DNA from: Acrocarpospora catenulata
Lineage (GTDB): Bacteria; Actinomycetota; Actinomycetes; Streptosporangiales; Streptosporangiaceae
Direction: 5' to 3'
Assembly: GCF_018476525.1 (NCBI RefSeq)
Contig: NZ_JAHCST010000002.1
Coordinates: 1 to 64,000, forward strand
DNA: 64,000 nucleotides
Shown: in pieces, positions 40,615-60,843 of the stretch
Layout: every line of letters begins with the position of its first letter
How positions within the stretch are numbered: position 1 is the stretch's first letter
Made by a program: the position numbers and the translations under genes
Notes under the pieces: model-generated
Told to the model about the DNA's origin: nothing
The model's input: only the letters and a program-made list of their open reading frames with translations
Databases searched by the model: none

Positions 40615-40628
40615 TGGGAGCGCTCCCA
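40615..40628. promoter_or_regulatory. CebR operator, distal site upstream of cebE
   Basis: TGGGAGCGCTCCCA, a perfect 14-bp palindrome identical to the CebR/CelR operator known from Streptomyces and Thermobifida cellulose-use genes. It lies 234 bp before cebE and 130 bp from the second site, so looping between two repressors is possible. The region between them is AT-richer (TTGACC at 40647, TATAAC at 40674) and probably holds a promoter. Confidence 0.88.
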
Positions 40629-40744
40629 ACTACTCGTATACACTTTTTGACCATTTATGTCCGTTTAGGCCCGTATAACCTGTCCAGGAGTAACAGTTAG
40701 GTTTCGGGAACTTGACGCTGGATTGCCTATGGTGGAACTCTTCG

Positions 40745-40758
40745 TGGGAGCGCTCCCA
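40745..40758. promoter_or_regulatory. CebR operator, proximal site upstream of cebE
   Basis: Second perfect TGGGAGCGCTCCCA, 91 bp before the cebE start. Repression would be lifted by cellobiose or cellotriose as in known CebR systems. The repressor gene is the last of the same locus. Confidence 0.9.
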
Positions 40759-40848
40759 ACGCGTGCGAACGCAGGGCCATGTCGTCGGGGACCGGCCCGG
40801 GAGACGCCCCCCAAACGAGATTCGGGAACCACCTGAGAGGGGTCCGGA

Positions 40849-42195
40849 ATGATGAACAACACGCGCCGCGGCAGGCTGCTCGCAGCCGTCGCGGTCGGCG
40901 CGCTCGCCTTCTCCGCAGCGGCCTGTGGGTCGGACGAGCCTGCCACCCCGGCCGCCGAGGGCTCCGGCGCCGCGTCGGCCCCGGCGGAGAAGGTCGAGAT
41001 CACCCTGCAGACCTTCGGCGGCGGCGAGAACTTCGCCTACGACGACGCGGTCGCCGCGTGGAACTCCAGCCACCCGAACATCCAGGTCAAGTACGTCAAC
41101 CTGACCGACCGCTTCGAGGACACCTACCTACCGCAGGTGCTCCAGTGGCTGGAGGCCGGCAGCGGCGCGGGCGACGTCATCGCCATGGACGAGGGCGCCA
41201 TGGGCCTCATGGCGGCCCGCCCGCAGTACTTCGCGGACCTGAGCCAGTACGGCCTGGACAGCCGCAAGGCCGACTTCCCCGAGTACAAGTGGAACACCGG
41301 CGTCAACAAGGACGGCAAGCTCTTCGCGCTCGGCACCGACATCGGCGGCATGGCCATGTGCTACCGCACCGACCTGTTCAAGCAGGCCGGCCTGCCCACC
41401 GAGCGGGACGCGGTCTCCGCGCTCTGGCCGGACTGGAACGCCTACTTCGAGACCGGCAAGAAGTTCAAGGCCGCGCTGCCCAAGGTGGGCTTCGTGGACG
41501 GCGCCAACACCGTGTACAACTCGGTGCTCGCGCAGGAGGCCGGCAAGAACGGCGGCCAGGTCTACTTCGACCAGAACCAGACGCTGATCGTGGACAAGAA
41601 CCCGGGCGTCAAGGCGGCCTTCGACTACGTGCAGAAGCTCAGCGAGGGCGGTCTCACCGCCAAGCTGCGCTCCTGGACCGAGGAGTGGAACACCGCCATG
41701 CAGAAGGGCGGCTTCGCCACCATGGGCTGCCCGAGCTGGATGCTCGGTGTGATCTCCGGCACCTCCGGTGACGCCAACAAGGGCAACTGGGACGTCGCGG
41801 CGGTGCCCGGCGGCAGCGGCAACTGGGGCGGCTCCTGGCTGATGGTGCCCTCGCAGAGCAAGCACCCGAAGGAGGCCGCCGAGGTCCTCAACTACCTGAC
41901 CGGTAAGGAGGGCCAGGTCGCCGCGTTCAAGGAGGGCGGCAACTTCCCCAGCAGCCTCCCCGCGCAGCAGGACCCGGCCGTCGCGGACGCCAAGAACCCG
42001 TACTTCAACGACGCGCCGAGCGGCCCGATCTTCTCCGCCTCGGTCGCGCAGCTGTCGCCGGTGTTCTTCGGTGAGAAGCACGCCCAGGTGAAGGCCGCCG
42101 TGGAGGAGGTCCTGGTGGGCGCCGACCAGGGCTCGGTCAAGTGGGCCGACGCCTGGACCCGGTTCGTGGAGGAGGGCGTCAAGGCCGCGGGCTGA
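40849..42195 (+). CDS. cebE: Cello-oligosaccharide ABC transporter substrate-binding lipoprotein
   Basis: 448-aa extracellular solute-binding protein of the sugar (family 1) type. Lipoprotein signal with lipobox SAAAC (Cys about 26), a Ser/Ala/Glu-rich linker, then the binding domain (ITLQTFGGGENFAYDDAV, VIAMDEGAMGLMA, GGSWLMVPSQSKHPKEAAEV). CebE assignment rests on sequence type plus context: two CebR operators upstream, permeases, beta-glucosidase and LacI regulator downstream. It captures cellobiose or cellotriose outside the membrane. ATG at 40849 (or 40852) with GAGAGGGG upstream. A strong palindrome in the following spacer may stabilise its mRNA relative to the permeases. Confidence 0.9.
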   Translation: MMNNTRRGRLLAAVAVGALAFSAAACGSDEPATPAAEGSGAASAPAEKVEITLQTFGGGENFAYDDAVAAWNSSHPNIQVKYVNLTDRFEDTYLPQVLQWLEAGSGAGDVIAMDEGAMGLMAARPQYFADLSQYGLDSRKADFPEYKWNTGVNKDGKLFALGTDIGGMAMCYRTDLFKQAGLPTERDAVSALWPDWNAYFETGKKFKAALPKVGFVDGANTVYNSVLAQEAGKNGGQVYFDQNQTLIVDKNPGVKAAFDYVQKLSEGGLTAKLRSWTEEWNTAMQKGGFATMGCPSWMLGVISGTSGDANKGNWDVAAVPGGSGNWGGSWLMVPSQSKHPKEAAEVLNYLTGKEGQVAAFKEGGNFPSSLPAQQDPAVADAKNPYFNDAPSGPIFSASVAQLSPVFFGEKHAQVKAAVEEVLVGADQGSVKWADAWTRFVEEGVKAAG

Positions 42196-42214
42196 TCCCC
42201 CGGCCGCGAACGTC

Positions 42215-42240
42215 ACCGGCCCCCGGATCCGGGGGCCGGT
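42215..42240 (+). repeat. 26-bp perfect palindrome between cebE and cebF
   Basis: The sequence from 42215 to 42240 is self-complementary (ACCGGCCCCCGGA followed by its complement). As RNA it would form a very stable hairpin 20 bp after the cebE stop. Such elements typically cause partial termination or protect the upstream message, giving more binding protein than permease. Confidence 0.7.
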
Positions 42241-42311
42241 CGCCTCGACTAAGAGCGGCCAGGACGGGCACCCCTCGCCCCCTGGCCGCTCCTTCCACGA
42301 AAGGTGGCAGT

Positions 42312-43286
42312 ATGAGCCTCCACGTCGACGCGGGCCAGAGGACCCGTCCGGTGCCGTCGTCACCACGGCGGCACGCCCGGCCTCCCGGACCCCGCCGCTG
42401 GTTGTCCTGGCTGGACCTGCGGGCAGCGCCGTACTTCTTCGTCTCGCCGTACTTCATTCTGTTCGCGATCTTCGGGATCTTCCCGCTCGTCTTCACCCTC
42501 TGGGTGTCGCTGCACGACTGGCAGCTGGCCGGCGACAAGACCTTCATCGGCCTGGAGAACTACACCGAGCTCCTCGCGGACGACAAGTTCTGGAACTCCG
42601 TGCTCAACACCGTGGGCATCTTCGTGATCGCCACGGTGCCGCAGCTGCTGCTGGCCCTGCTGCTGGCCAACGCGCTGAACAAGAAGCTCCGCGGCCGGCT
42701 GGTGCTCCGGCTGAGCGTGCTCGCGCCGCTGGTCACCTCGGTGGTGGCGGTGGCGGTGGTCTTCACCCAGCTGTACGGCCGTGACTACGGCCTGGTGAAC
42801 TGGGTCGTCGGCCTGTTCGGCGGGGACCCCATCCACTGGCAGAACGCCAAGTGGTCGTCCTGGATCGCGATCGCCACCATGGTCGACTGGCGGTGGACCG
42901 GCTACAACGCGATCATCTACCTGGCCGCGATGCAGACCATCCCCAAGGACCTGTACGAGGCGGCGGCCATCGACGGCGCCAGCCCTCGACGGCAGTTCTG
43001 GGGCATCACGGTCCCGCTGCTCAAGCCCACCATCATCTTCACCGTCATCGTCTCCACCATCGGCGGCTTCACCCTCTTCGCCGAGCCGGTGATGTTCGGC
43101 GCCGGCCTGATGACCGGCGGCACCACGGGCCAGTTCCAGACGGTGGCCATGTTCATCGTCAAGGAGGGCTTCCGTGACTTCGAGTACGGCTACGCCGCGG
43201 CGGCGGCCTGGATCCTGTTCCTGCTGATCCTGATCACCGCCTTGATCAACTTCGTACTCGTCCGCGGCATCGGGAGATCACGATGA
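42312..43286 (+). CDS. cebF: Cello-oligosaccharide ABC transporter permease 1
   Basis: 324-aa inner-membrane permease of the MalF type. A Pro/Arg-rich cytoplasmic N-terminus (about 1-35) precedes six transmembrane segments. The EAA loop EAAAIDGASPRRQFWGITVP contacts the ATPase. ATG at 42312. The usual partner ATPase MsiK is not encoded here; in streptomycetes it is a shared protein encoded elsewhere. Overlaps cebG by 4 bp (ATGA). Confidence 0.92.
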   Translation: MSLHVDAGQRTRPVPSSPRRHARPPGPRRWLSWLDLRAAPYFFVSPYFILFAIFGIFPLVFTLWVSLHDWQLAGDKTFIGLENYTELLADDKFWNSVLNTVGIFVIATVPQLLLALLLANALNKKLRGRLVLRLSVLAPLVTSVVAVAVVFTQLYGRDYGLVNWVVGLFGGDPIHWQNAKWSSWIAIATMVDWRWTGYNAIIYLAAMQTIPKDLYEAAAIDGASPRRQFWGITVPLLKPTIIFTVIVSTIGGFTLFAEPVMFGAGLMTGGTTGQFQTVAMFIVKEGFRDFEYGYAAAAAWILFLLILITALINFVLVRGIGRSR

Positions 43287-44170
43287 CCACACTGACCCAG
43301 GCCCGGCCCCCCCGGGTCACCGGGGCGGGCACCTCCCGGCTCGACCCGTTCCGGGCCACCCCGCTCACCAAGGCGATGCTGGCCCTGGCGATCTTCCTGT
43401 CCATCTTCCCGATCTACTGGATGATCGTCATCGCCACCCGGAGCAACGAGGACGCGCACAGCATGCCGCCCCCGCTGCTGCCCGGCGGCAACCTCGGCGA
43501 GAACATCAAGGCGGTGTTCGACGCCGAGAACGCGCACTTCATGACCGGCATCACCAACTCGATCATCATCACCTCGATCGTCACCATCGGCATCGTGCTG
43601 ATCTCCACGCTGGCCGGGTTCGCCTTCGCCTCGCTCACCTTCCGCGGGCGGAACCTGCTGCTGCTCTCGGTGGTCCTGACCATGATGGTGCCGCTCCAGC
43701 AGATGGGCATCGTCCCGCTGTACCAGATGATGGTCACCCTCGGCTGGACGAACACCCTGAAAGCCGTCATCCTCCCGTTCCTGGTCAACGGGTTCGGCGT
43801 CTTCCTGATGACGCAGTACACCCGGCAGGCCGTACCCCGGGAGCTGGTGGAGGCGGCCCGGGTGGACGGCGCGAACACCCTCCGGATCTGGTGGAATGTC
43901 GCCCTGCCGGCCGTACGGCCCGGCATGGCGGTACTGGCCATCCAGACATTCATGCTGATCTGGAATGAATTCCTCTGGCCCCTGATCATCCTGACCCCGG
44001 ACAATCCGACTGTGCAAGTCGCTCTCCGGGCTCTCAACGACCGGTATTCCACCAACTACGTGCTCATTTTCGCGGGCACCACGCTATCGATCATTCCGTT
44101 GCTGCTCGTCTTCGTCTTCTTCGGCCGCCAGATCATCGGCGGACTCATGGAAGGCGCGGTCAAGGAGTGA
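43283..44170 (+). CDS. cebG: Cello-oligosaccharide ABC transporter permease 2
   Basis: 295-aa permease of the MalG type with six transmembrane segments and the EAA loop (EAARVDGANTLRIWWNVALP). It pairs with CebF to form the channel. Translationally coupled to cebF, and 52 bp upstream of bglC. Confidence 0.92.
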   Translation: MTTLTQARPPRVTGAGTSRLDPFRATPLTKAMLALAIFLSIFPIYWMIVIATRSNEDAHSMPPPLLPGGNLGENIKAVFDAENAHFMTGITNSIIITSIVTIGIVLISTLAGFAFASLTFRGRNLLLLSVVLTMMVPLQQMGIVPLYQMMVTLGWTNTLKAVILPFLVNGFGVFLMTQYTRQAVPRELVEAARVDGANTLRIWWNVALPAVRPGMAVLAIQTFMLIWNEFLWPLIILTPDNPTVQVALRALNDRYSTNYVLIFAGTTLSIIPLLLVFVFFGRQIIGGLMEGAVKE

Positions 44171-44222: not shown

Positions 44223-45659
44223 GTGACCACCCAAGACACAGAGACCCAGATCGACACCCCGGGTCTGGTGTTCCCCACCGGCTTCGTCTGGGGCTCCGCC
44301 ACCTCGGCGTACCAGATCGAGGGCGCGGTCAGCACCGACGGACGCGGCAAATCCATCTGGGACACGTTCGTGCACCAGCCGGGCCGCGTCGTCAACGGCG
44401 AACACGCCGACGTCGCCATCGACCACTACCACCGCTACCGTGACGACGTCCGGCTGATGGCCGACCTCGGGCTGACCGCCTACCGGTTCTCGGTCTCCTG
44501 GCCCCGGGTGCAGCCGCTCGGCAGCGGCGCGATCAACGCCAAGGGCCTGGACTTCTACTCGCGCCTGGTGGACGAGCTGCTCAGCTACGGCATCGACCCG
44601 TGGCTGACGCTCTACCACTGGGACCTGCCGCAGGCTCTGGAAGACGCCGGCGGGTGGCCGTCACGCGACACGTCGAAGCGCTTCGCGGACTACGCGGCGG
44701 CGGTGCACGGGGCCCTCGGTGACCGGGTCAAGAACTGGGCCACCGTCAATGAGCCGTGGTGCGCGGCGTTCCTCGGATACGCCTCGGGCGAGCACGCACC
44801 GGGACGGCGTGAACCCGCCCGGGCGATCCACGCCGCGCACCACCTGAACCTGGCCCACGGCCTGGCCGTGGAGGCGATGCGGGCCCAGCGCACCGACACC
44901 CGGATCGGCGGCTGCGTCAACCTGTACGCGATGACCACCGCCACCGAGAGCGAGGCCGACCAGGACGCCGCCCGCCGGATCGACGGCCTGCAGAACCGCT
45001 TCTTCCTGGACGCGCTCATGCACGGCCGCTACCCGGCGGACGTGCTGGCGGACCTGAGCCAGCTGACCGGCCCGGAGTTCATCCACGACGGGGACATGGC
45101 GCTCATCTCCCAGCCGCTGGACATGCTCCTGATCAACTACTACAGCCGGTACACCGTGACCGGCGCCTCCGGCGGAGCCTCCTCGGCCACCGCCGCGCCC
45201 ACCGACTCCGGCTCCCCGTGGGTGGGCAGCGAGCACGTCGGCTTCGTCAACGGCGGACGGCCGGTAACCTCTATGGGCTGGGAGGTGGACGGCCCCGGCC
45301 TGCTTGAGGTGCTGCACCGGCTGACCCGCGAGTACCCGTCCATCCCTCTGTACATTTCAGAGAACGGCGCCGCCTACGACGACGTGCTGACCGAGGACGG
45401 GGCTGTCCACGATGTGGAACGCCGCGCCTTCATCGACACCCACCTGCGGGTTTGTCACCAGGCCATCGAGGGTGGAGTGCCCCTCCAGGGCTACTTCGCC
45501 TGGTCCCTCATGGACAACTTCGAGTGGGCCTGGGGGTACGGCAAGCGTTTCGGGCTGGTGTATGTGGACTATTCAGCGCAGACGAGGATCCTGAAAGATA
45601 GCGCTCTCTGGTACGCCGAGACCATCCGGCACGGAGGCCTTCGGGGTCCGGCAGAATAG
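44223..45659 (+). CDS. bglC: GH1 beta-glucosidase
   Basis: 478-aa cytosolic family 1 glycosidase, usual length, no signal peptide. Substrate-binding start FVWGSATSAYQIEGA, acid/base Glu in TVNEPW, nucleophile Glu in YISENGAA, and WSLMDNFEWAWGY. It hydrolyses imported cellobiose and cellotriose to glucose. GTG at 44223 with GGAGGAGG upstream. Last structural gene before cebR. A second GH1 gene sits at 59468. Confidence 0.93.
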   Translation: MTTQDTETQIDTPGLVFPTGFVWGSATSAYQIEGAVSTDGRGKSIWDTFVHQPGRVVNGEHADVAIDHYHRYRDDVRLMADLGLTAYRFSVSWPRVQPLGSGAINAKGLDFYSRLVDELLSYGIDPWLTLYHWDLPQALEDAGGWPSRDTSKRFADYAAAVHGALGDRVKNWATVNEPWCAAFLGYASGEHAPGRREPARAIHAAHHLNLAHGLAVEAMRAQRTDTRIGGCVNLYAMTTATESEADQDAARRIDGLQNRFFLDALMHGRYPADVLADLSQLTGPEFIHDGDMALISQPLDMLLINYYSRYTVTGASGGASSATAAPTDSGSPWVGSEHVGFVNGGRPVTSMGWEVDGPGLLEVLHRLTREYPSIPLYISENGAAYDDVLTEDGAVHDVERRAFIDTHLRVCHQAIEGGVPLQGYFAWSLMDNFEWAWGYGKRFGLVYVDYSAQTRILKDSALWYAETIRHGGLRGPAE

Positions 45660-45686: not shown

Positions 45687-46706
45687 ATGAACGGGGACCG
45701 ACGCTTGGCTGCCCGGCCGACCCTCGAAGCGGTCGCGGCCAGGGCCGGAGTTGGGCGTGGCACGGTGTCACGGGTCATCAACGGCTCACCCAAGGTGAGC
45801 GAGAAGGCCCGCGACGCCGTGCTGCTCGCGATCGACGAACTCGGTTATGTGCCCAACCGGGCGGCCAGGACCCTGGTCACCAATCGCACGGACACCATCG
45901 CCCTGGTGGTGTCGGAGTCGGAACAGCGCGTCTTCGACGAGCCGTACTTCGCGGGCCTGATCCGCGGCATCGGCTCGGCGCTGGCCGAGACCGGCCTCCA
46001 GCTCATCCTGAGCATGGCACAGAACCGGAGCGAGCACGAACGGCTGGAGAACTACCTGACCGGGCAGCACGTGGACGGTGTGCTGCTCACCTCGGTGCAC
46101 GGCGCCGATCCGCTGCCCGGGAGGCTGGAGAACCTCGGCGTGCCGACCGTGCTCGGCGGACGGCCGGTCGGGCTCAATCCGTACAGCTACGTGGACATGG
46201 ACAACCGGGCCGGGGCCCGGCAGGCGGTCAAGTACCTGCTGGGCAACGGCCGCACCCGGGTGGCCACCATCGCCGGGCCCCAGGACATGGGCGTGGGTGT
46301 GGACAGGCTCGCCGGGTACCGGGACGCGCTGCTGGCCACCGGCACCCCGGAGCGGGTCGCCTACGGCGACTTCTCCGAGGAGAGCGGTTCCACGGCGATG
46401 CGCGAACTGCTCGACCGGCACGGCGACCTGGACGCGGTCTTCGCCGCCTCCGACCCGATGGCCGTGGGCGCCCTGCGGGTGCTCAAGGAACGCGGCAAGT
46501 CCGTGCCCCACGACGTGGCGGTGATCGGTTTCGAGGACTCCAAGGTCGCCCTGCACACCGATCCCCCGCTCACCTCGGTGCACCAGCCGACGGAGTCCAT
46601 GGGCCGCCAGATGGTCCAGCTCCTGGTGGCCCGGATCAACGGCGAACCCCTGGAACAACCCGTCGTCATCCTGGACACCCATCTGGTGATCCGCGCCTCG
46701 ACCTGA
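45687..46706 (+). CDS. cebR: LacI-family repressor of cello-oligosaccharide genes
   Basis: 339 aa. N-terminal helix-turn-helix and hinge (TLEAVAARAGVGRGTVSRVI, NGSPKVSEKAR, LGYVPNRAARTL), then a periplasmic-binding-protein-like ligand domain (IALVVSESEQRVFDEPYF, FAASDPMAVGAL, IGFEDSKVALHTDPPLTSV). The ATG at 45687 is preferred over the TTG at 45666 because GAGGGGG lies 8 bp upstream. It should bind TGGGAGCGCTCCCA and release on cellobiose or cellotriose. Copies of this box occur upstream of cebE, of NRPS cluster 2 and of the epimerase gene, so its regulon probably extends beyond sugar use. Confidence 0.9.
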   Translation: MNGDRRLAARPTLEAVAARAGVGRGTVSRVINGSPKVSEKARDAVLLAIDELGYVPNRAARTLVTNRTDTIALVVSESEQRVFDEPYFAGLIRGIGSALAETGLQLILSMAQNRSEHERLENYLTGQHVDGVLLTSVHGADPLPGRLENLGVPTVLGGRPVGLNPYSYVDMDNRAGARQAVKYLLGNGRTRVATIAGPQDMGVGVDRLAGYRDALLATGTPERVAYGDFSEESGSTAMRELLDRHGDLDAVFAASDPMAVGALRVLKERGKSVPHDVAVIGFEDSKVALHTDPPLTSVHQPTESMGRQMVQLLVARINGEPLEQPVVILDTHLVIRAST

Positions 46707-52400: not shown

Positions 52401-54790
52401 TGGCCGGGGTCTGGCAGGAGGTCCTTGGCCGGGACGAGGTCGGCGTGCACGACGACTTCGTCACCCTGGGCGGCCACTCGCTGCTGATGATCCGCATGAT
52501 CGCCCGGCTCCGCCAGGTGCTGCCGGAACGGCCGGTGACCGTGCTGGACGCCATCGCCAACCGCACGGTGGCCAAGCTGGCCGCCCTCATCGACGGGGTG
52601 AGCACCGAGGAGGACGGCGAGTCCGAGGAGGAGACCGGCCGCGGCCTGCTGGTCCGCATGACACCCCCCGGCAAGGCCACCCTGACGCTGGTCTGCGTGC
52701 CGTACGGCGGCGGCAGCGCGGTCGTCTACCAGAGCCTCGCCGAGGCCCTGCCCGAGGGCGTGGCCCTGTACGCGGTGGCCCTGCCCGGCCACGAACTCGG
52801 CATCGAAGAGGAGACCCTCCCCTTCGCCGAGGCCGCCCAGCGGGTCGCCGCCGAGATCGTGTCCACCGTCAAGGGCCCCCTCGTGCTGTACGGCCACTGC
52901 GTGGGCAGCGCCCTCACCACCGAGATCGCCCGCCGGGTGGAACGCACCGGCCGGAAGGTGGAGGCGGTCTACATCGGCGGCAGCTTCCCGTTCGCCGCCC
53001 CCCGCACCGGCTTCGGCGGCGTGCTGGCCCGTTTCTTCCGGCGCAGCCGCAACGACAACGCCGAGGCCAACTGGCTCCGCGCGATCGGCGCCGACCTGGA
53101 CGGCCTGGACGCCGAGCAGGTGGCCACCATCGTCAAGACCATGCGCGGCGACGCCCAGGCCGGCGAGGAGTACTTCTCCGAGCTGGTGGAGAGCGGCGCC
53201 ACCAAGCTGGACGCGCCGGTCATCTCGGTGGTCGGCAGCCGCGACCCGATCACCGACTTCTACCCCGAGCGCTACCGGGACTGGCACGTCACCGCCGGGA
53301 CCACCGCGCTGGTGGTGATCGACGAGGCCGGGCACTACTTCCTCCGCTACCGGGCCGAGGAGCTGGCGAAGATCGTCACCACCGTGCACACCGCGCTGGA
53401 CGAGCCGCACGGGGCGCAGACCTGGCGGAAGGAGGCGGTCTCCCGGCAGGCCCTGGCCGCCGACGCCCGGCTGAGCCGCTTCCTGCGGGTGGCCGGGGGC
53501 CAGCTGGTGTCGATGATCGGCACCGCGATAACCGAGTTCGCGGTGCCCATCTGGGCGTACCTGAAGACCGGCTCGCTGCTGCAGTTCAGCCTGTTCGCCA
53601 TCGTCGGCCTGGTGCCGGGCCTGGTGCTCTCCCCCGTGGTCGGCGCCCTGGTGGACCGCTACGACCGCCGTAAGGCGATGCTCGCCGGGGACGGCGCCTG
53701 CCTCACCCTCCAGGCGGTCATGCTCACCCTGCTGCTCACCGGCACCCTCACCATGCCCGCCCTGTACGGCCTCCTGGTGCTGCTGTCGATCTCGCTGACC
53801 CTGCAACGCCTGGCCTGGGGAGCGGCGGTGCCGCAGCTGGCGCCCAAGCACTACCTCGGCCACGCGGGCGGCGTGCTTCAGCTCGGCAACGCCATCGGCC
53901 GCCTCATGGTGCCGCTGTTCGCGGTCGCCGTCCTGGCCGCCATCGGCCTGGAGGGCATCCTCATCGGCACCATCGCCTGCTACCTGGTCGCGGTCACCGT
54001 CACCCTGCTCACCCCGTTCCCCCAGCGCATGGGCTGGTTCCGGCGGGAGACGGTGGGCGCGGAGATCCGCAACGGCTTCCGCTACCTGTGGCGGCGGCGC
54101 GGCCTGCGGGCCATGGCGCTGACCATGTTCGTCGTCAACTTCTTCCTGTTCACCGCGTTCGTGATGATCTCGCCGCTGGTGCTGTCCATCGGGGAGCTGG
54201 CCGACACCGGCCGGATCGCGGTGATCGCCGGCGTCGGCGCGGTGGCCGGCGGGTTCGTCATCTCCTTCTGGGGCGGGCCCCGGCGGCGGCGGATGTTCGG
54301 CATGCTCGCCTCGGTGGGGGTCGTGGCGGTGTTCGCCTTCTCGATGGGCCTGCGGCCCTCGCTGCTGCTGATCGCGGTGGCCGCGGCCGGCATGTCGCTG
54401 ATGATGTCGATCAGCGACGGCATCTGGATCACCATCATCCACGCCAAGGTGCCGCAGCGTTTCCACGCCCGGGTGATCGCGATCAACCAGATGCTGGCCA
54501 TGTCCACCCAGCCGATCGGCCTGGCCGTCCAGGCCTGGCTGGCCACGCTCATCTTCGAACCACTGATGCGCGAGGGAGGCGCGCTCGCGTCCACCGTCGG
54601 CGCCGTGATCGGCACGGGCGAGGGCCGGGGTATCGGCCTGCTCTACCTGATCTGCGGCCTGGCCATGGCGCTCACCATCGTCATCGCCCTTCGGCACCCC
54701 GCTCTAGCGCACTTCGACCGGGACACCCCGGACGCCGAACCGGACGACCTGGTCGGTCTGGCGGAGATCAACGCCAGGCAGTCTCGCTGA
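49439..54790 (+). CDS. Single-module NRPS fused to an MFS exporter (C-A-T-TE-MFS), cluster 2
   Basis: 1783-aa paralogue of the 4909-10158 gene, same domain order. C domain (about 55-470, HHIAADG about 173). A domain (about 490-965, FTSGSTGRPKG, NEYGPTE, YRTGDRVHW). Pocket code by GrsA alignment D-L-P-K-V-A-E-V-G-K, closest to Asn/Asp codes (Pro at 239 is unusual). Carrier GGHSL (Ser about 1014). Thioesterase with YGHCVGS, Cys about 1154 replacing Ser, and AGHYF His. MFS transporter about 1345-1755 (VDRYDRRKAMLAGD). An acyl group, perhaps carried by the free carrier protein encoded next, would be joined to an Asx residue, released by the TE and exported by the same polypeptide. GTG at 49439 with GGAGAG upstream. 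Under an apparent CebR operator. Confidence 0.92.
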   Translation: MAVTSTSRSDSAPRSSIGGLSPLRQAALARLLTPRQKTPITPLPRDGDPLPCSFEQRQMWLGSQLDGVATAPNATLGLKLEGRLDLAALTAALDGLIVRHESLRTTYQGDGDEPRQIVHPPFPMPLEYCDAPGLAEEVTAEAATHRFDLRNGPVVRATLIRLAPEAHALLVVCHHIAADGWSMGLLADELAVRYAAALTGREPELPELPVQYADYAAWSRAELTPEVLAARGEHWRTTLAGAGALQLPMRRERPAPGGRRTSTHWTTLPHALLARLQAAGGPGTTPFTALLSVFTMLLARYTGEPDITLASTNGGRRRVELEKVVGCFVSAVPVRGDLSGDPSFPEVAARLRRAVGGALTHHLPLSVLAEQVPVELPVSFSLRGFQDQRGGEWPGLTASIWSHEVDDLGYELSLLVHLDREEVGLDFACRRDVLDEESIARMAGHFRHLAEQIAAAPTLPLSALELATPEERATILGPWNDSAAPYPEKALPELLQEHRESAATAAVFEGATVSYAELHARANRIAHRLRELGVGPEATVGVLLDRRPDLIAALLGVWQAGGAYVPMDPAFPERRIADMLETAETRLVITEEKYADLFGNIEILDISDPSIDEQPATPPGVPYDVDRLAYLIFTSGSTGRPKGVQVTHRGLVNHVWWAVQELAARGRGGAPLLGSVAFDLVVPNLWAPLVTGQTVTILPQDFDMGELGAILARSGPFSFIKLTPGHLEILGHQLDDAAAAGLAEVIVVAGEALPGSLADRWLEILGPGRLINEYGPTEASVGTCIHPVLHRQHHEVVPIGRPLPNMRMYVLDPAGKLLPAGVPGELYVGGVGVTRGYMNRPDLTAERFVEFEGERVYRTGDRVHWLPTGDVAFLGRFDDQVKIRGYRIELDEVRAALLDHPSVRDAVAVVHEDRLVAYYVGAAGPVADLAEHCAVRLPEYMIPVVFTELDSIPLNANGKVDRRALPEPVAAAATTDTVLPRTDTERAVAGVWQEVLGRDEVGVHDDFVTLGGHSLLMIRMIARLRQVLPERPVTVLDAIANRTVAKLAALIDGVSTEEDGESEEETGRGLLVRMTPPGKATLTLVCVPYGGGSAVVYQSLAEALPEGVALYAVALPGHELGIEEETLPFAEAAQRVAAEIVSTVKGPLVLYGHCVGSALTTEIARRVERTGRKVEAVYIGGSFPFAAPRTGFGGVLARFFRRSRNDNAEANWLRAIGADLDGLDAEQVATIVKTMRGDAQAGEEYFSELVESGATKLDAPVISVVGSRDPITDFYPERYRDWHVTAGTTALVVIDEAGHYFLRYRAEELAKIVTTVHTALDEPHGAQTWRKEAVSRQALAADARLSRFLRVAGGQLVSMIGTAITEFAVPIWAYLKTGSLLQFSLFAIVGLVPGLVLSPVVGALVDRYDRRKAMLAGDGACLTLQAVMLTLLLTGTLTMPALYGLLVLLSISLTLQRLAWGAAVPQLAPKHYLGHAGGVLQLGNAIGRLMVPLFAVAVLAAIGLEGILIGTIACYLVAVTVTLLTPFPQRMGWFRRETVGAEIRNGFRYLWRRRGLRAMALTMFVVNFFLFTAFVMISPLVLSIGELADTGRIAVIAGVGAVAGGFVISFWGGPRRRRMFGMLASVGVVAVFAFSMGLRPSLLLIAVAAAGMSLMMSISDGIWITIIHAKVPQRFHARVIAINQMLAMSTQPIGLAVQAWLATLIFEPLMREGGALASTVGAVIGTGEGRGIGLLYLICGLAMALTIVIALRHPALAHFDRDTPDAEPDDLVGLAEINARQSR

Positions 54791-54804
54791 AAGGAACGTG
54801 TCAC

Positions 54805-55143
54805 ATGACCTCCCCCGATATGACCCCCACTGAGTCGGCCGTCGCCGAGATCTGGACCGAGCTGCTCGGCCAGGCGCCCCCGTCCACGCACGACGACTTC
54901 TTCGAGCTCGGCGGCCAGTCGCTGACCATGGTCCAGTTCCTGGCCAGGGTGGAGGAGCAGTACGGCGTGGAACTCCCCATCGACGTGCTGTTCGCCTCCG
55001 GGTTCACGGTGGCCGAGGTGGCCAAGGCGATCGACGAGGGCCGGCTGGACGCGGTCGGCGACGAGGAACTGGCGGAGCTGCTCAAGCAGCTGGAGGGCAT
55101 GTCCGACGAGGAGATCAGCGAACTGCTGTCGGAAGACGCATGA
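54805..55143 (+). CDS. Stand-alone peptidyl/acyl carrier protein
   Basis: 112 aa, a single carrier domain with the phosphopantetheine site GGQSL (Ser about 42) in DDFFELGGQSLTMVQF. A C-terminal acidic tail (EELAELLKQLEGMSDEEISE) resembles the tails that end some NRPS proteins. It could carry the acyl group used by the NRPS condensation domain, or receive the acyl group made by the downstream E1/E2 enzymes. ATG with AAGGAA upstream, 14 bp after the NRPS; overlaps the glycosyltransferase (ATGA). Confidence 0.9.
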   Translation: MTSPDMTPTESAVAEIWTELLGQAPPSTHDDFFELGGQSLTMVQFLARVEEQYGVELPIDVLFASGFTVAEVAKAIDEGRLDAVGDEELAELLKQLEGMSDEEISELLSEDA

Positions 55144-56384
55144 GGGTTCTGCTGGCCCAGAACATGTTCCACCTGCCGAGCCACGGCGGGGCGAACAAGT
55201 CCAACCGGGTCCTGCTGGAGCAGCTGGCGGCGCGCGGGCACGAGTGCCACGTCGTGGCGCCGCTCTCCGGCGCGCTGCGGGCCACCTCCGTGCAGGCGCA
55301 CCTGTCGTACCTGGAGGGCCTTGGCGCCACCGTCAAGGCCGTCTCCGAGGAGGAGGTCGAGTACACCTACCAGGGGGTCACCGCGCACGCGGTGGCCCTC
55401 CCGCCGCTGCTGGCCCGCCGGGTCGGCGAGGTGGCCGCCCAGGTCGGCCCTGACTGGACGCTGGTCCCCTCCGACGATCCCGGCCTGCTGATGCTGGGCG
55501 CGGCGCTGCGGGCCACCCCCGAGCGGGTGGTCTACCTGGCGCACACCCTCCAGCAGCTGCCGTTCGGTCCCGGCGCGTTCTACCCGAGCGCGGCCGGGAC
55601 CCGCATGGTCAAGCGGGCGGCCGGCGTGGTGGCGGTGAGCAGGGCCGCGCAGTACTACCTGGCCCGGTACGGCGGGATCGACGCCACCCTGATCTACCCG
55701 CACATCTACGGCGACCCCCGGGAGCTGACCGGTGGCGAGCACGTCACGATGATCAACCCGTGCGGGTACAAGGGCCTGGCCATCCTGCTCGGCCTGGCCG
55801 ACGCCCGCCAGGACGTGCCCTTCCTGGCCGTGCCCACCTGGGGGGCGACCCCGGCGGAGCGCGCCGAGCTGGAGCGGCGGCCGAACATCACGGTGATCGA
55901 ACCGTCCGACGACATCGACGAGATCCTGGCCAGGACCCGGGTGCTGCTGATGCCCTCGCTCTGGGACGAGACCTTCGGCTACACCTGCGTGGAGGCGATG
56001 GCCAGGGGCATCCCGGTGCTCGCCGCCGACGTGGGCGGGCTGGCCGAGGCGAAGCTGGGCGTGCAGTACCTGCTGCCGGTGCGGCGCATCGAGAGCTACG
56101 AGTCCACCGGCCACGCCCGGCCGGTGCCCGTCGTCCCGGAACAGGATCTGGGCCCCTGGGCGGACGCGCTGGGCGCCGTGCTCGCCCACCCCGAACTCCA
56201 CCGGGAGCTGTCCCGGCGCTCCCGCGCGGCGGCCCGCGAGTTCATCGCCGGGCTGGACGAGGACGCGCTGGAGAACCATCTGACCTCCCTGCGGCCGAAC
56301 CGGCGGCAGGCCGCCCTGGCGGCTCTGGCCGCGCGGGCGAAGGAAAGAAACACGAAGGAGAAAGGCAGGATGGGCACCGCATGA
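55140..56384 (+). CDS. GT4-type glycosyltransferase
   Basis: 414-aa GT-B transferase. N-terminal VLLAQNMFHLPSHGGANKSN, middle GVVAVSRAAQYYLARYGG, donor site MPSLWDETFGYTCVEAMARG (the E-x7-E type motif of retaining enzymes). The C-terminus is basic and Ala-rich. It lies inside the NRPS operon, with ATGA overlaps on both sides, and so probably adds a sugar to the product or to a carrier-bound intermediate. Together with the GT1 enzyme, the product may carry two sugars. Confidence 0.88.
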   Translation: MRVLLAQNMFHLPSHGGANKSNRVLLEQLAARGHECHVVAPLSGALRATSVQAHLSYLEGLGATVKAVSEEEVEYTYQGVTAHAVALPPLLARRVGEVAAQVGPDWTLVPSDDPGLLMLGAALRATPERVVYLAHTLQQLPFGPGAFYPSAAGTRMVKRAAGVVAVSRAAQYYLARYGGIDATLIYPHIYGDPRELTGGEHVTMINPCGYKGLAILLGLADARQDVPFLAVPTWGATPAERAELERRPNITVIEPSDDIDEILARTRVLLMPSLWDETFGYTCVEAMARGIPVLAADVGGLAEAKLGVQYLLPVRRIESYESTGHARPVPVVPEQDLGPWADALGAVLAHPELHRELSRRSRAAAREFIAGLDEDALENHLTSLRPNRRQAALAALAARAKERNTKEKGRMGTA

Positions 56385-57307
56385 TCGGCGCGACAGAGGA
56401 GCGGGTACGGGACCTGACACCCGTGGCCGACGCGGACCTGGAGCGCATGCTCCGGATCCGGTACTTCGAACGGGCGCTGCTGCGGCTGTTCGAACGCGGC
56501 CAGCTCAACGGCACCACCCACACCTGCCTGGGCCAGGAGCACGTGCCGGTCGCGGTGACCGGCCTGCTGGACCCGGAAGACTTCGTGTTCAGCAACCACC
56601 GGGGCCACGGCCACTTCCTGGCCAGGTACGACGAGCCGCACGCGCTGCTCGCCGAGATCATGGGCCGGGAGGGCGCGCTCTGCAACGGGGTCGGCGGCAG
56701 CCAGCACATCTTTCACGAGCGTTTCCTGTCCACCGGGGTGCAGGGCGAGAGCCTGCCGGTGGCGGTCGGGGTGGCGCTGCGGCTGAAGCGGACGGCGCCG
56801 GGACGGCTCGCCTGCGCGTACATCGGGGACGGGACCTGGGGCGAGGGCTCGGTCTACGAGGCGCTGAACATGGCGCAGCTGTGGCGGGCGCCGCTGCTGG
56901 TGGTGGTCGAGCACAACCGCATCGCCCAGTCCACGCCGACCACCGTGCAGATGGCCGGGACGGTCGCGGGCCGGGCGGCGGCCTTCGGGGTGCTCCACCA
57001 CCGGGTGGACGCGGTGGACGTGAACGTGATCCGCGCCGAACTGGCCCCGCTGCTGGCCAGGGCCCGCTCCGAGTCCCGCCCGGTGGTGGCCGAGATCGCC
57101 GTACACCGGCTGGGCCCGCACAGCAAGGGCGACGACACCCGCACCTCCGAGGAGCTGCGGGAGGCCGCCGAGCACGACTGGCACCCCCGGTACGCCGCGG
57201 CCTTCCCCGAGCAGTTCGCCCGGCTGGAGGAGGAGCAGCGGGCCTTCGTGGAGCGCGTCGTGGACGACGTCATGATCCGCCCGCTCTCGGCCTGGGAGCG
57301 GCCATGA
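56381..57307 (+). CDS. 2-oxo acid dehydrogenase E1 component, alpha subunit
   Basis: 308-aa thiamine diphosphate enzyme subunit. RIRYFERALLRLFERGQ at the start, SNHRGHGHFLA with the cofactor-binding His residues, and the ThDP/Mg motif GDGTWGEGSVYEALNMA followed by VVVEHN. The size and HRGHGH pattern fit the acetoin/pyruvate-type alpha subunits. With E1-beta and E2 it would oxidatively decarboxylate a 2-oxo acid to an acyl-lipoyl, or catalyse an acyloin reaction. Located inside an NRPS operon, it probably supplies a building block. ATGA overlap with both neighbours. Confidence 0.9.
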   Translation: MIGATEERVRDLTPVADADLERMLRIRYFERALLRLFERGQLNGTTHTCLGQEHVPVAVTGLLDPEDFVFSNHRGHGHFLARYDEPHALLAEIMGREGALCNGVGGSQHIFHERFLSTGVQGESLPVAVGVALRLKRTAPGRLACAYIGDGTWGEGSVYEALNMAQLWRAPLLVVVEHNRIAQSTPTTVQMAGTVAGRAAAFGVLHHRVDAVDVNVIRAELAPLLARARSESRPVVAEIAVHRLGPHSKGDDTRTSEELREAAEHDWHPRYAAAFPEQFARLEEEQRAFVERVVDDVMIRPLSAWERP

Positions 57308-58287
57308 GGGTCGCCGAGCACCTGAACGAGGCGCTGCACACGCTGCTGGCCGCCGACCCGTCCGTGCACGTGCTGGGCGAGGACATCACCGACCCGTACG
57401 GCGGGGCGTTCAAAATCACCAAGGGCCTGTCCACCAGGTTCGGCGACCGGGTCGTCTCGACCCCGCTGAGCGAGGGCGGCATCGTCGGCGTGGGCGCCGG
57501 CCTGGCGCTGGCCGGGGACCGGGCGATCGTGGAGATCATGTTCGGCGACTTCGCCGCGCTCGCCTTCGACCAGCTGCTCAACTTCGCCAGCAAGTCCACC
57601 GCCATGTACGGCCGCCAGGTCCCGATCCCGCTGATCGTGCGCTGCCCCACCGGCGGCCGCCGCGGCTACGGCCCGACGCACAGCCAGAGCCCGCAGAAAC
57701 ACTTCATCGGCATGCCCGGCCTGGCCCTGTACGAGCTGAGCCCCTTCCACGACGCGCACGCCCTGCTCACCGACATGTTCGCCCGCCAGGCCCCCTGCGT
57801 GCTCTTCGAGGACAAGGTGCTCTACACCCGGCGGATCTGCCGGGACGGCGTGGTGGACGACCTGTTCCGGTTCGAGCTGACCGGCGGCTGGGCCCGCGTG
57901 TACGCCGACGGCGACCTGCCCCCGGACTGCGTGATCATCGCGCCCGGTGGGCTGGCCGACCGGGCCCTGGAGGCGATGCGGGAGCTGCTCATCGAGCACG
58001 AGATCACCTGCGTGCTGCTGGTCCCCGGCCGCCTCTACCCGCTGGAGGTGGCCCCGGTGCTGGACCTGCTCCGCTCGGCCGGCACGGTCTGCGTGGCCGA
58101 GGACGGCACCGCCGGCGGCACCTGGGGGGCCGAGGTGGCCCGATTGCTCCACCCGGCACTGTGGGACACCCTGTCCGGCCCGATCCGGCTGGTCAGCGGC
58201 GCGGACTCGGTCATCCCGACCGCCCCGCACCTGGAACGCGAGGTCATCGTGCAGGCGGACACCATCAGGAAGGCAGTGCTCGCGTGA
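57304..58287 (+). CDS. 2-oxo acid dehydrogenase E1 component, beta subunit
   Basis: 327-aa partner of the preceding subunit. Motifs VLGEDITDPYGGAFKITKGL, STPLSEGGIVGVGAGLAL, RCPTGGRRGYGPTHSQSPQ (active-site His) and VCVAEDGTAGGTWGAEV are those of the transketolase-like pyrimidine-binding and C-terminal domains. It forms an alpha2-beta2 tetramer with E1-alpha in known family members. Coupled to E2 by a GTGA overlap. Confidence 0.92.
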   Translation: MRVAEHLNEALHTLLAADPSVHVLGEDITDPYGGAFKITKGLSTRFGDRVVSTPLSEGGIVGVGAGLALAGDRAIVEIMFGDFAALAFDQLLNFASKSTAMYGRQVPIPLIVRCPTGGRRGYGPTHSQSPQKHFIGMPGLALYELSPFHDAHALLTDMFARQAPCVLFEDKVLYTRRICRDGVVDDLFRFELTGGWARVYADGDLPPDCVIIAPGGLADRALEAMRELLIEHEITCVLLVPGRLYPLEVAPVLDLLRSAGTVCVAEDGTAGGTWGAEVARLLHPALWDTLSGPIRLVSGADSVIPTAPHLEREVIVQADTIRKAVLA

Positions 58288-59396
58288 TCGAGATCCGGGT
58301 GCCCAAGCTCAACAACAACGACACCAGCTACGTGCTGGTGGAGTGGCTGGCCGACGACGGTGCCGCCGTGGCCATCGGCGACCCGCTGGTGGTGGTGGAG
58401 ACCTCCAAGACCGCCGAGGAGCTCTGCGCCGAGGACGCCGGCATCCTGCGCCGGGTGATCGCCGAGGGCGCCGACTGCGAGCCGGGCCAGCTGATCGCCC
58501 GCCTCCAGGCGCCGGGCGAGTCCGCGGAGATCCCTACGTCCGTGGAAGCGCCCACGGAGGCGGTGGAGGACGTCGTCATCACCGCCCCCGCCCGCGCCCG
58601 CATGGCCGAGCTCGGCGTGACGGCCGGGCAACTGGCCGTCCTCGGCAAGAAGGTGATCCGCCGCGAGGACGTGGAGAGCCTCGCCGCCTTGGCGGAGCAG
58701 GCCGCCGAGCCCGAGGACCCCCGCCTCGTCCGGCTCACCAAGGCCCAGCGCCTCACCGCCGAGGTGGTCAGCCTCTCGCACCAGACCGTCCCCGCCGCGT
58801 TCACCGCCGTCAAGGTCGACGTCACCGACACGGCCAAGCTGACCAGGGACCTGTCCCGGCACGCCCGCACCCTGATCGGCCTGTCCGAACTGCTGGTGAA
58901 GGCGGTCGCCGAGCAGCTGATCGAGTTCCCGCTGATGTTCGCCACCCTGGTCGAGCCCGGCACCGTACGGCTGGCCGAGGCGGCCCACGTGGGCGTCACC
59001 ATCGACGTCGGCAAGGGCCTGTTCATCCCGGTGGTCAGGGACGCGCAGGCCCGCCCGCTGGACGCCGTGGCCCGCGAGCTCATGGACTACCGGATGACCG
59101 CGCTGCGCGGCAGCTTCCGGGAGCGTGACCTGGAGGGCGCCAACATCACGGTGACCCTGCACAACGACGGCGCGGTGACGCTGGCGGTGCCGATCATCTA
59201 CCCCGGCCAGGTGGCCGCGCTCTCGCTGGCCGCCACCCAGCAGGAGGTGGTCCCGGCCGGGGAGGGCTTCGCGGTCCGGCAGGTGGTGCAGCTGGGGATC
59301 GCCTTCGACCACCGGGTGGTGAACGGGCGGGACGCCGCGCTCTTCCTGGCTGCGGTGAAACACCTACTGGAAACACCACGCCATTGGCTGGAATGA
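58284..59396 (+). CDS. 2-oxo acid dehydrogenase E2 (lipoyl acyltransferase)
   Basis: 370 aa. One lipoyl domain (1-80) with the lipoylation site VVVETSKTAEEL (Lys42). A short linker and a peripheral-subunit-binding domain (about 98-135, APARARMAELGV) follow. The catalytic acyltransferase domain (about 150-370) ends in FDHRVVNGRDAALFL. The catalytic His is present, but the canonical Asp of DHRxxDG is Asn, as in some branched-chain E2 proteins. No E3 gene is nearby; lipoamide dehydrogenase would come from elsewhere. In this operon it may transfer the acyl group to CoA or to the carrier protein encoded upstream. Confidence 0.9.
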   Translation: MIEIRVPKLNNNDTSYVLVEWLADDGAAVAIGDPLVVVETSKTAEELCAEDAGILRRVIAEGADCEPGQLIARLQAPGESAEIPTSVEAPTEAVEDVVITAPARARMAELGVTAGQLAVLGKKVIRREDVESLAALAEQAAEPEDPRLVRLTKAQRLTAEVVSLSHQTVPAAFTAVKVDVTDTAKLTRDLSRHARTLIGLSELLVKAVAEQLIEFPLMFATLVEPGTVRLAEAAHVGVTIDVGKGLFIPVVRDAQARPLDAVARELMDYRMTALRGSFRERDLEGANITVTLHNDGAVTLAVPIIYPGQVAALSLAATQQEVVPAGEGFAVRQVVQLGIAFDHRVVNGRDAALFLAAVKHLLETPRHWLE

Positions 59397-59467
59397 CGCA
59401 CCATACGGTATTTCTGCTCATACCACTCAGTACGTGAGCAACCGCTACACAATTACCAAGGAGACCC

Positions 59468-60766
59468 ATGAACGCTCTGCGGTTCCCGAGCGACTTCGTC
59501 TGGGGCGCGGCCACTTCCGCGTACCAGATCGAAGGAGCGACCAAGGAGGACGGGCGGGGGGTGTCCATCTGGGACACCTTCGCCGCCACCCCGGGAAAAG
59601 TGCGGAACGGCGACACCGGGGACCCCGGGGCCGACCACTACCACCGCTACGAGCAGGACCTGGACCTGATGCGGGACCTGGAACTGCGCAGCTACCGGTT
59701 CTCGGTGGCCTGGCCGCGGATCCAGCCCACCGGGAAGGGCGCGCCCAACCAGAAGGGCCTGGACTTCTACCGGCGGCTGGTGGACGGATTGGTCGAACGG
59801 GGCATCCGGCCGATGGTCACGCTCTTCCACTGGGACCTGCCGCAGGCGCTCCAGGACGAGGGCGGCTGGGAGAGCCGGGAGACCGCGCACCGGTTCGCCG
59901 ACTACGCCGAGATCGTCTTCGGGGCGCTGCACGTCCGGGACTGGCTGACCATCAACGAGCCGAAGACGGTGGTGGAGTGCGGCTACAAGACGGGCGTGCA
60001 CGCCCCTGGCGTGGCCGACTGGGACCGGGCCCTGGTGGCCTGCCACCACCTGCTGCTGGCGCACGGCCTGGCCAGCCGCGTCCTGCACGAGCAGTACGCC
60101 GGCCGCCGGATCGGCCCCGCGCTCAACCTGCACCCGACCTACCCAGCCGAGGACACCCCCGAGGCCAGGACGGCGGCCTGGCACCAGGACGGGCTGGAGA
60201 ACCGGCTCTACCTCGACCCGATCTTCAAGGGCGCCTACCCCGAGGGGATCCTGACCGACCGCAGCCACATCCACGAGGGCGACCTGGCCGCCATCAGCGA
60301 GCCCGTCGACCTGCTCGCGGTGCAGTACTACACGCCGGTCTTCGTCGGCTCGGACGGCGAGCGGGTGATCAAGCATCCGGTGCGTGCGGCGAGCTGGCTG
60401 GAGGACTACCCGGACGGCTTCCACGACATCCTGGTCCAGGTCAAGCGGGACTACCCCGAGGTCCCGCTGGTCATCACCGAGAACGGCCTGGCCACCGACG
60501 ACGAGCCCGGCCAGGACGGCCGGGTCGCGGACCTGGACCGCATCTCCTACCTGCGCGGCCACCTGGCGGCACTGCACCGGGCGATGAAGGCGGGCGTACG
60601 GGTGGAGGGCTACCACGTCTGGTCGCTGCTCGACAACTACGAGTGGGCCGAGGGCTACGCCCAGCGGTTCGGCGTCGTGCACGTGGACTTCGCCACCCAG
60701 CACCGCACTCTCAAGGACAGCGCCCTCTGGTACCGCGACGTGATCAAGACCGGAGAAGTCCGATAA
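59468..60766 (+). CDS. GH1 beta-glucosidase, second copy
   Basis: 432-aa family 1 glycosidase without signal peptide: FVWGAATSAYQIEGA, acid/base TINEPK, nucleophile VITENGLA, WSLLDNYEWAEGY. It is 71 bp after the E2 gene, with AAGGAGA just before the ATG, and is probably in the same CebR-controlled unit. It may hydrolyse cello-oligosaccharides like BglC, or trim the glucosyl group from the NRPS product, as glycosidases do in some antibiotic self-protection systems. A CebR box follows it. Confidence 0.92.
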   Translation: MNALRFPSDFVWGAATSAYQIEGATKEDGRGVSIWDTFAATPGKVRNGDTGDPGADHYHRYEQDLDLMRDLELRSYRFSVAWPRIQPTGKGAPNQKGLDFYRRLVDGLVERGIRPMVTLFHWDLPQALQDEGGWESRETAHRFADYAEIVFGALHVRDWLTINEPKTVVECGYKTGVHAPGVADWDRALVACHHLLLAHGLASRVLHEQYAGRRIGPALNLHPTYPAEDTPEARTAAWHQDGLENRLYLDPIFKGAYPEGILTDRSHIHEGDLAAISEPVDLLAVQYYTPVFVGSDGERVIKHPVRAASWLEDYPDGFHDILVQVKRDYPEVPLVITENGLATDDEPGQDGRVADLDRISYLRGHLAALHRAMKAGVRVEGYHVWSLLDNYEWAEGYAQRFGVVHVDFATQHRTLKDSALWYRDVIKTGEVR

Positions 60767-60789
60767 TCCCAGCAAACCGCCCCCTTTTG

Positions 60790-60818
60790 TTGACTCTCCA
60801 ACCTAAAGGACTAGGATT
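60790..60818 (+). promoter_or_regulatory. Probable promoter of the epimerase gene
   Basis: TTGACT at 60790-60795 and AGGATT at 60813-60818 (17-bp spacer; TAGGAT with 16 bp is equivalent). The CebR box begins about 12 bases downstream, the same arrangement as at the NRPS promoter. Confidence 0.55.
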
Positions 60819-60829
60819 ACCCATAGTAG

Positions 60830-60843
60830 TGGGAGCGCTCCCA
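60830..60843. promoter_or_regulatory. CebR operator ahead of the epimerase gene
   Basis: Perfect TGGGAGCGCTCCCA (16 bp with flanking G/C, 60829-60844), 151 bp before the GTG at 60994. Confidence 0.88.

Follow-up and report, generated by a model that had tools for sequence, protein, structure and literature searches.

Predicted CebR operators probably connect cellobiose sensing with non-ribosomal peptide synthetase operons in Acrocarpospora and other actinobacteria

Can a repressor that senses cellobiose also govern the production of a non-ribosomal peptide? The question arises in the first 64,000 nt of contig C94 of the Acrocarpospora catenulata genome (10.29 Mb, 181 contigs), hereafter the window, where the gene for CebR, a LacI-type repressor, sits between a ceb ATP-binding cassette (ABC) transporter and a non-ribosomal peptide synthetase (NRPS) cluster, and where a 14-bp palindrome, TGGGAGCGCTCCCA (the box), stands before both. 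The original prediction took the box for a CebR operator that places NRPS expression under cellobiose control. Our analysis supports that link: the box before the NRPS operon is invariant in all 12 Acrocarpospora and Herbidospora genomes compared, it recurs at operon starts in other genera, and CebR has the recognition stretch of the regulator in PDB entry 5ysz. On this predicted-operator evidence we consider it highly probable that CebR is a cellobiose-responsive repressor of the ceb, NRPS, and epimerase-kinase operons, of cellulase genes, and of further NRPS promoters. The sites in the window are as follows.

40615..40628, no strand, CebR box 1 before cebE, exact TGGGAGCGCTCCCA; one-mismatch counterpart in A. 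corrugata (L058)
40745..40758, no strand, CebR box 2 before cebE, exact; exact counterpart in A. corrugata (L058) at an equal 130-bp spacing
49194..49207, no strand, degenerate CebR box TGGACGCGCTCCCA with two mismatches, also in the NRPS promoter
49318..49331, no strand, CebR box of the NRPS operon, exact; 14 of 14 columns invariant in 12 genomes
60830..60843, no strand, CebR box of the epimerase operon, exact

An exact search of the window recovered the perfect box at all four positions that had been named and in the placement described: two copies precede cebE (start 40849), one ends 107 bases upstream of the NRPS start (49439), and one ends 150 bases upstream of the epimerase start (60994). 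The epimerase-operon box is matched exactly in 5/5 Acrocarpospora, the A. phusangensis contig stopping after it, in 7/7 Herbidospora, and in 2/3 Sphaerisporangium, while the degenerate copy TGGACGCGCTCCCA is kept in all four other Acrocarpospora and is absent from the aligned Herbidospora.

The claim that a random 14-mer would be rare holds with room to spare, as Markov models of orders 1 to 4 trained on 418 kb of the same genome expect 0.07 to 0.15 exact copies in the entire 10.29 Mb; we found 19, counted on one strand because TGGGAGCGCTCCCA is a palindrome. One-mismatch boxes add 11 sites, and at ≤2 mismatches the genome holds 95, versus 56 for the reversed motif, a smaller excess than for exact copies. 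A whole-genome scan had been proposed as a check. The box is not confined to the window loci but is not randomly placed either: beyond the window there are 15 exact sites, and 8 of them coincide with or are close to the start of a gene encoding a cellulase domain and CBM2 (glycoside hydrolase [GH] families GH6 ×3, GH48 ×2, GH5, GH9, and GH12). Two others precede LacI-type genes (C162:31410 and a site on C97 between a solute-binding protein [SBP] gene and a LacI gene), one belongs to an NRPS condensation (C)-domain gene of a second NRPS locus on C127, and three have no clear target (C99:91933, C151:38202, and C162:28694). Gene starts were those of the longest open reading frame (ORF), and some boxes therefore fall a few bases inside an ORF. 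NRPS-type gene starts account for 4 of the 11 one-mismatch sites (C127:233008, C127:255629, C116:146457, and C35:140351) and cellulase-domain genes for 3 (C109:5511, C35:219252, and C160:107122), and 1 is within an ORF with a GH5 domain (C109:79879); the remainder lie before a major facilitator superfamily (MFS) gene (C128), before a methyltransferase gene (C98), and within an ORF (C104).

The remaining exact site, C160:101008, overlaps the first codons of a BTAD/NB-ARC regulator gene (L026:4098-6029), which could possibly act as a relay to other pathways.

Is CebR the protein that would read these sites? Its gene closes an operon with the expected transporter and beta-glucosidase.

40849..42195, plus strand, cebE, SBP, probably for cello-oligosaccharides (SBP_bac_8, E=2.4e-27)
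42141..43286, plus strand, cebF, ABC permease (BPD_transp_1); longest ORF, true start probably later
43283..44170, plus strand, cebG, ABC permease (BPD_transp_1)
44223..45659, plus strand, bgl1, GH1 enzyme of the ceb operon (Glyco_hydro_1, E=8.3e-161)
45687..46706, plus strand, cebR, CebR/CelR-type LacI repressor (LacI and Peripla_BP_3); ATG start, longest ORF from 45666

The best PDB match of CebE is 5ixp, a family-1 SBP (E=9.4e-81), followed by 8bfy, annotated as a "putative secreted cellobiose-binding" protein (E=8.2e-66). CebR is closest to the LacI-family regulator chain 5ysz (413.8 bits, E=4.5e-123; next match, 156.3 bits), which we take to be Thermobifida fusca CelR, and the recognition stretch AGVGRGTVSRVINGS is identical in the two proteins. 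Against NCBIfam, CebR reached no equivalog cut-off (best, CytR, 197.9 of 436 bits). A LacI gene encoded with cebEFG and a beta-glucosidase, boxes near gene starts, and boxes at cellulases together match the make-up of a CebR/CelR regulon. The genome has 40 LacI-type matches at E≤1e-25, two other LacI-type genes (on C162 and C97) have a box upstream, and the divergent arm opposite the NRPS operon carries a different palindrome, all of which would fit real LacI-type operators read at the NRPS operon by one or more paralogous repressors that respond to another sugar. We judge this unlikely: CebR alone among the 40 has the G-R-G triad of 5ysz, at the positions that set LacI operator specificity; the identical exact box precedes cebE and the cellulase genes; and cebR lies beside the cluster in 4/5 Acrocarpospora (window included) and 5/7 Herbidospora.

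If CebR binds the box, is the NRPS copy better conserved than its surroundings? We aligned the intergenic region between the NRPS gene and the divergent glycosyltransferase (GT) gene of type GT1 from the 5 Acrocarpospora and 7 Herbidospora genomes. All 14 box columns are invariant, compared with 217 of 589 other columns (37%), and the only other stretch yielding fully invariant 14-column windows is CGTGACTTTTTTTAAGT, which perhaps belongs to a second promoter. With the NRPS operon just 2.7 kb from cebR, the box at 49318 might be a leftover of the neighboring ceb operon with no effect on the NRPS genes; its invariance in 12 genomes despite diverged surroundings, its copies on other contigs, and its presence at the operon start in Nonomuraea, Kitasatospora, Dactylosporangium, and Micromonospora, with no ceb gene in the flanks searched, make this very unlikely. 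A hairpin reading fares worse still. The terminator scan calls TGTGGGAGCGCTCCCACA plus a weak T run (49316-49333) terminator-like, yet it found one such site against a shuffle mean of 0.6, it names none over the 60830 box, and the boxes precede genes rather than follow them; that the palindrome is a transcription terminator and not an operator is almost certainly wrong. By eye, TTGAC-type promoter-like sequences lie shortly upstream of many boxes, and a promoter scan found such a site only at 60790.

How far does the association reach? A GT4-type glycosyltransferase gene in the NRPS operon served as marker of the cluster, and combining 20 of 297 family genomes (E≤1e-60) with 27 loci of a named collection, 16 of them common to both, gave 31 genomes. 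Twenty-two have an exact box at the operon start: Acrocarpospora (5/5), Herbidospora (7/7), Nonomuraea (4/4), Sphaerisporangium (2/3), NEAU-GS5 (1/1), and Kitasatospora phosalacinea (3/3). Three more, from Dactylosporangium (2/2) and Micromonospora (1/1), have the one-mismatch version TGGAAGCGCTCCCA. An initial impression that the Micromonosporaceae and NEAU-GS5 loci were boxless was rejected as an artefact of short flanks, since a box, exact or with one change, is at 4/4 of these operon starts (two Dactylosporangium, one Micromonospora, and NEAU-GS5). The box persists despite differing gene order: in Nonomuraea, S. rufum, Sphaerisporangium G034, Kitasatospora, and Pseudonocardia the GT4 operon begins with the carrier protein gene pcp and not with the NRPS gene, so the box follows the promoter and not one gene. 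The Pseudonocardia genome has no exact TGGGAGCGCTCCCA at all. A symmetric variant, TGAGAGCGCTCTCA, occurs there upstream of pcp and also of a neighboring transporter operon. The SBP of that operon resembles CebE (35% over 396 aa), its LacI protein differs from CebR (46% identity, triad S-R-A), and the predicted arrangement is one in which transporter and biosynthesis share another, co-varying operator.

What would the operon make? The adjoining genes and the operon itself (49439-60766: NRPS, free carrier protein, GT4, E1 alpha, E1 beta, lipoyl E2, and GH1, with GT1 and TauD divergent) are listed below, where TPP is thiamine pyrophosphate and C-A-T-TE a condensation-adenylation-thiolation-thioesterase module.

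46759..47670, minus strand, TauD-type Fe/2-oxoglutarate dioxygenase (TauD, E=1.3e-31)
47667..48905, minus strand, GT1-type glycosyltransferase (EryCIII-like_C; NCBIfam MGT and others far under cut-off)
48999..49012, no strand, second palindrome AGAGAGCGCTCTCT before GT1, perhaps another LacI-type operator
49439..54790, plus strand, NRPS, C-A-T-TE fused to an MFS exporter, 1783 aa (Pfam Condensation, AMP-binding, PP-binding, Thioesterase, MFS_1)
54805..55143, plus strand, free-standing peptidyl carrier protein (PCP) (PP-binding; GGQS serine)
55140..56384, plus strand, GT4-type glycosyltransferase, marker of the cluster (Glycos_transf_1)
56381..57307, plus strand, E1 alpha, TPP-dependent 2-oxoacid dehydrogenase type (E1_dh, E=4.4e-44; 6cer, E=2.5e-32)
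57304..58287, plus strand, E1 beta (Transket_pyr, Transketolase_C)
58284..59396, plus strand, E2 lipoyl acyltransferase (2-oxoacid_dh, Biotin_lipoyl; ETSK lipoyl-type stretch)
59468..60766, plus strand, bgl2, GH1 enzyme at the end of the NRPS operon (Glyco_hydro_1, E=4.1e-150)
60994..61872, plus strand, aldose 1-epimerase (Aldose_epim, E=2.2e-40)
61904..62890, plus strand, APH/fructosamine-kinase-like kinase (APH, E=2.1e-24)

The operon combines an E1 and a lipoyl E2 with a carrier protein, the genes expected for starter loading of the 2-oxoacid-dehydrogenase type. NRPS systems for naphthyridinomycin and quinocarcin load a hydroxyethyl or glycolyl unit by a TPP-dependent E1 and a lipoyl E2 with a carrier protein; Acrocarpospora differs in having separate E1 alpha, E1 beta, E2, and PCP genes, plus two glycosyltransferases. 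Of the 31 GT4 loci, 28 gave E1/E2 matches, the exceptions being NEAU-GS5, Paenibacillus, and Pyrinomonadaceae. Canonical E2 enzymes have the motif DHRxxDG; this E2 has DHRVVNG (DHRxxNG). N is found at that position in 25 of 26 related E2s (T in Pseudonocardia), and the substitution may accompany the use of a carrier protein, rather than CoA, as acceptor. TPP enzymes of the paulomycin type add two-carbon branches to sugars, and sugar branching is an alternative role for E1, one that the lipoyl E2 here does not suggest. Read by eye, the adenylation-domain code is D-L-P-K-V-A-E-V-G-K, closest to Asn/Asp codes, and none of our argument leans on it. GT4 has no PDB relative at E≤1e-5. By a motif search the GGxS serine seemed to be missing from the Nonomuraea and S. 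rufum PCPs; we rejected this, as their sequences read GAQS or GAES with the serine retained. Elsewhere in the window, the minus-strand gene at 34934-36202 resembles flavin monooxygenases and, more weakly, Lys/Orn N-oxygenases, and it might serve hydroxamate siderophore synthesis.

The GH1, E1/E2, and two glycosyltransferase genes in or beside the operon, along with an epimerase and a kinase that have the same box, also suit a different reading, in which CebR control is real and the operon serves carbohydrate metabolism, making or breaking glucosides, with no secreted peptide. The first gene of the operon, in which an exporter is joined to an entire C-A-T-TE module, argues otherwise, as does the company that GT4 keeps with other NRPS modules in other genera, and we regard this reading as distinctly unlikely.

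Is this operon the sole NRPS target? The window operon stands as predicted, and boxes at several unlinked NRPS loci point to further targets. Locus 2 (C127:231423-245294) comprises a C-domain gene and divergent NRPSs; in the promoter between them, 5/5 Acrocarpospora have an exact box and, 166 bp from it, a one-mismatch box, with a similar pair 211 bp apart at the promoter of this type in Sphaerisporangium G034. The locus 2 C gene shares 58 to 61% identity with the one downstream of E2 in Nonomuraea and 57% with its S. rufum equivalent; the 1832-aa NRPS of the locus shares 48 to 49% with the NRPS preceding PCP-GT4 in Micromonosporaceae (47% in NEAU-GS5). A third C-A-T-TE-MFS gene lies downstream of the one-mismatch box at C116:146457, and the gene after it resembles GT1 by its first residues only; the C116-type locus has an exact box in 7/7 Herbidospora and a one-mismatch box in A. 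corrugata. At C35:140351, the one-mismatch box TGGGAGCGTTCCCA, kept in 5/5 Acrocarpospora, precedes a C-PCP gene and then ORFs of 418 and 1035 aa; no C35-type ortholog was found in Herbidospora at the cut-off. Six genes of the genome share the MFS part of the window NRPS at 49439 (three were tested by Pfam), and a box marks the operon of three of the six (49439 itself, C127, and C116). Nonomuraea and Micromonosporaceae keep comparable parts within one cluster. We tentatively suggest, as a possibility well short of the confidence we place in CebR control itself, that in Acrocarpospora and Herbidospora unlinked NRPS loci (here the window, C127, C116, and C35) are joined by CebR boxes rather than by lying side by side, the single starter-unit cassette of the window serving them in trans, with cellobiose (and perhaps a beta-1,3-glucan sugar acting through the GT1-tauD palindrome) switching on related glycopeptides; these loci would then yield one product family from one starter cassette.

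Two further observations concern the surroundings of these loci. A GH48 cellulase gene lies near NRPS locus 2 (C127:247000-259109), as it does in 7/7 Herbidospora (L170-L176). The window also holds another NRPS cluster, a divergent NRPS-type pair (4909-10158, minus strand; 10357-16302, plus strand); the end of the first of these genes encodes a stretch with 51% identity to the MFS portion of the NRPS at 49439, and the gene has no CebR box.

Several results weigh against CebR control of the NRPS genes or limit its extent. At ≤3 mismatches the window has 10 matches (4 exact, 1 with two mismatches at 49194, and 5 with three), which is at chance level (shuffle mean, 8.14; at least 10 in 28/100 shuffles), and the signal thus rests in the exact copies. 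The promoter scan named no sigma-70-like site at the NRPS promoter, and the GT1-tauD arm carries a palindrome other than the CebR box. Three of the six NRPS-MFS genes (window 4909-10158, C130, and C170) have no exact or one-mismatch box in the vicinity of the window gene or in the entire contigs C130 and C170. Locus 2 is present in 7/7 Herbidospora, 0/7 with a box at ≤2 mismatches (20 kb each); the C116-type locus of A. phusangensis has only a two-mismatch box, and for A. macrocephala and A. pleiomorpha the ortholog search with C116 recovered only locus 2 at the cut-off, with no close C116 ortholog. In each of the three Micromonosporaceae genomes TGGAAGCGCTCCCA occurs in 3 copies (reversed control, 0 to 2), making the cluster copy one of a few and not special to the cluster. 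Five of the 31 GT4 genomes have no box at ≤2 mismatches: Actinoplanes utahensis has no cluster box in the first flanks examined and 15 exact boxes elsewhere in its genome; S. album has two three-mismatch relics just before pcp and nothing closer; Paenibacillus and Pyrinomonadaceae have none, the Pyrinomonadaceae operon start perhaps lying beyond the flank examined; and a metagenome-assembled genome has none on a contig that begins 563 bp before pcp. A search for substitute operators (perfect 14-nt palindromes) in parts of seven boxless loci found only G+C-rich ones, in three.

What, then, might control the GT1-tauD arm? Its palindrome, AGAGAGCGCTCTCT, is found in 5/5 Acrocarpospora and, with one change, in 7/7 Herbidospora. 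The core GAGAGCGCTCTC has 21 sites in the genome versus 0 for a reversed control, and 5 of the 21 are on C181, among two LacI genes and genes for GH81, GH1, and CBM6 proteins, a setting that suggests GAGAGCGCTCTC marks a beta-1,3-glucan regulon. The two arms of the GT1-NRPS intergenic region may accordingly answer to different beta-glucans. GAGAGCGCTCTC was also noted on C95 and C1, and two Dactylosporangium genomes have 40 and 31 copies.

How does this compare with known systems? The genes that define the thaxtomin cluster are those for the P450 TxtE, the nitric-oxide synthase TxtD, and the AraC-type activator TxtR, beside the NRPS genes. Among the ORFs tested (38819-62890), Pfam matches include no equivalent of any of the three, in agreement with the expectation that the cluster here is of a different type. 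The premise that CebR controls thaxtomin synthesis in Streptomyces scabiei is confirmed in the accessible parts of two papers (PMC8914351 and PMC12527672), and the likeness is that of NRPS biosynthesis under the cellobiose repressor CebR with the same operator family. In those parts, the thaxtomin sites (CGGGAGCGCTCCCA and GGGGAGCGCTCCCA) lie ahead of txtR/txtA, by 786 and 900 nt, and within txtB, with control running through the activator TxtR, whereas here a perfect box lies 107 bases before the biosynthetic operon itself; the Acrocarpospora system also differs in its genes, its several loci, and its many genera. As far as the accessible text of PMC8914351 goes, no induced S. scabiei cluster other than thaxtomin seems to be under direct CebR control, most other cello-oligosaccharide-responsive clusters look CebR independent, and two cryptic clusters rose in a cebR mutant without a predicted site; the accessible text of PMC12527672 gives CebR sites for thaxtomin only. 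The CelR regulon of Thermobifida fusca and other actinobacteria shares the 14-bp site, a LacI regulator beside a cellobiose ABC transporter, and sites at cellulases, and differs in that the portion of the source available raises secondary metabolism only as a possibility, with a site within an Actinosynnema mirum polyketide synthase gene (PMC3377646). For Herbidospora, conserved NRPS pathways without known product have been counted, one of them single-module, in what is accessible of PMC4599437. Searches of an open-access library turned up no report, judged by title and abstract, on this gene set or on these NRPS genes under CebR.

In the mechanism we propose, CebR, without cello-oligosaccharide, would occupy TGGGAGCGCTCCCA near the transcription start and block (i) cebEFG-bgl-cebR, (ii) NRPS-PCP-GT4-E1-E2-bgl, (iii) epimerase-kinase, (iv) the cellulase genes, and (v) the NRPS promoters on C127, C116, and C35. 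Cellobiose imported by CebEFG would release CebR, and this presumed inducer would thereby switch on cellulose degradation together with synthesis of a glycosylated non-ribosomal peptide. The predicted biosynthesis would start with E1/E2 charging the free carrier protein with a small acyl group derived from a 2-oxo acid or a ketose. This group would be glycosylated by the glycosyltransferases and joined to one or more amino acids by C-domain NRPS modules, and the fused TE-MFS would release and then export the product.

Direct CebR control of a biosynthetic cluster is reported, in the source parts accessible, for thaxtomin only, in a plant pathogen. The box link described here recurs in Streptosporangiaceae (Acrocarpospora, Herbidospora, Nonomuraea, Sphaerisporangium, and NEAU-GS5) and in Kitasatospora (Streptomycetaceae), with one change in Micromonosporaceae (Dactylosporangium and Micromonospora), and as a co-varying variant in Pseudonocardia. 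It offers a direct route to wake a silent cluster, by cellobiose addition or cebR deletion. This distribution suggests that production of the compound is an old companion of cellulose degradation, and if the proposed control is true, the compound would seem to be made when the actinobacterium meets decaying plant matter.

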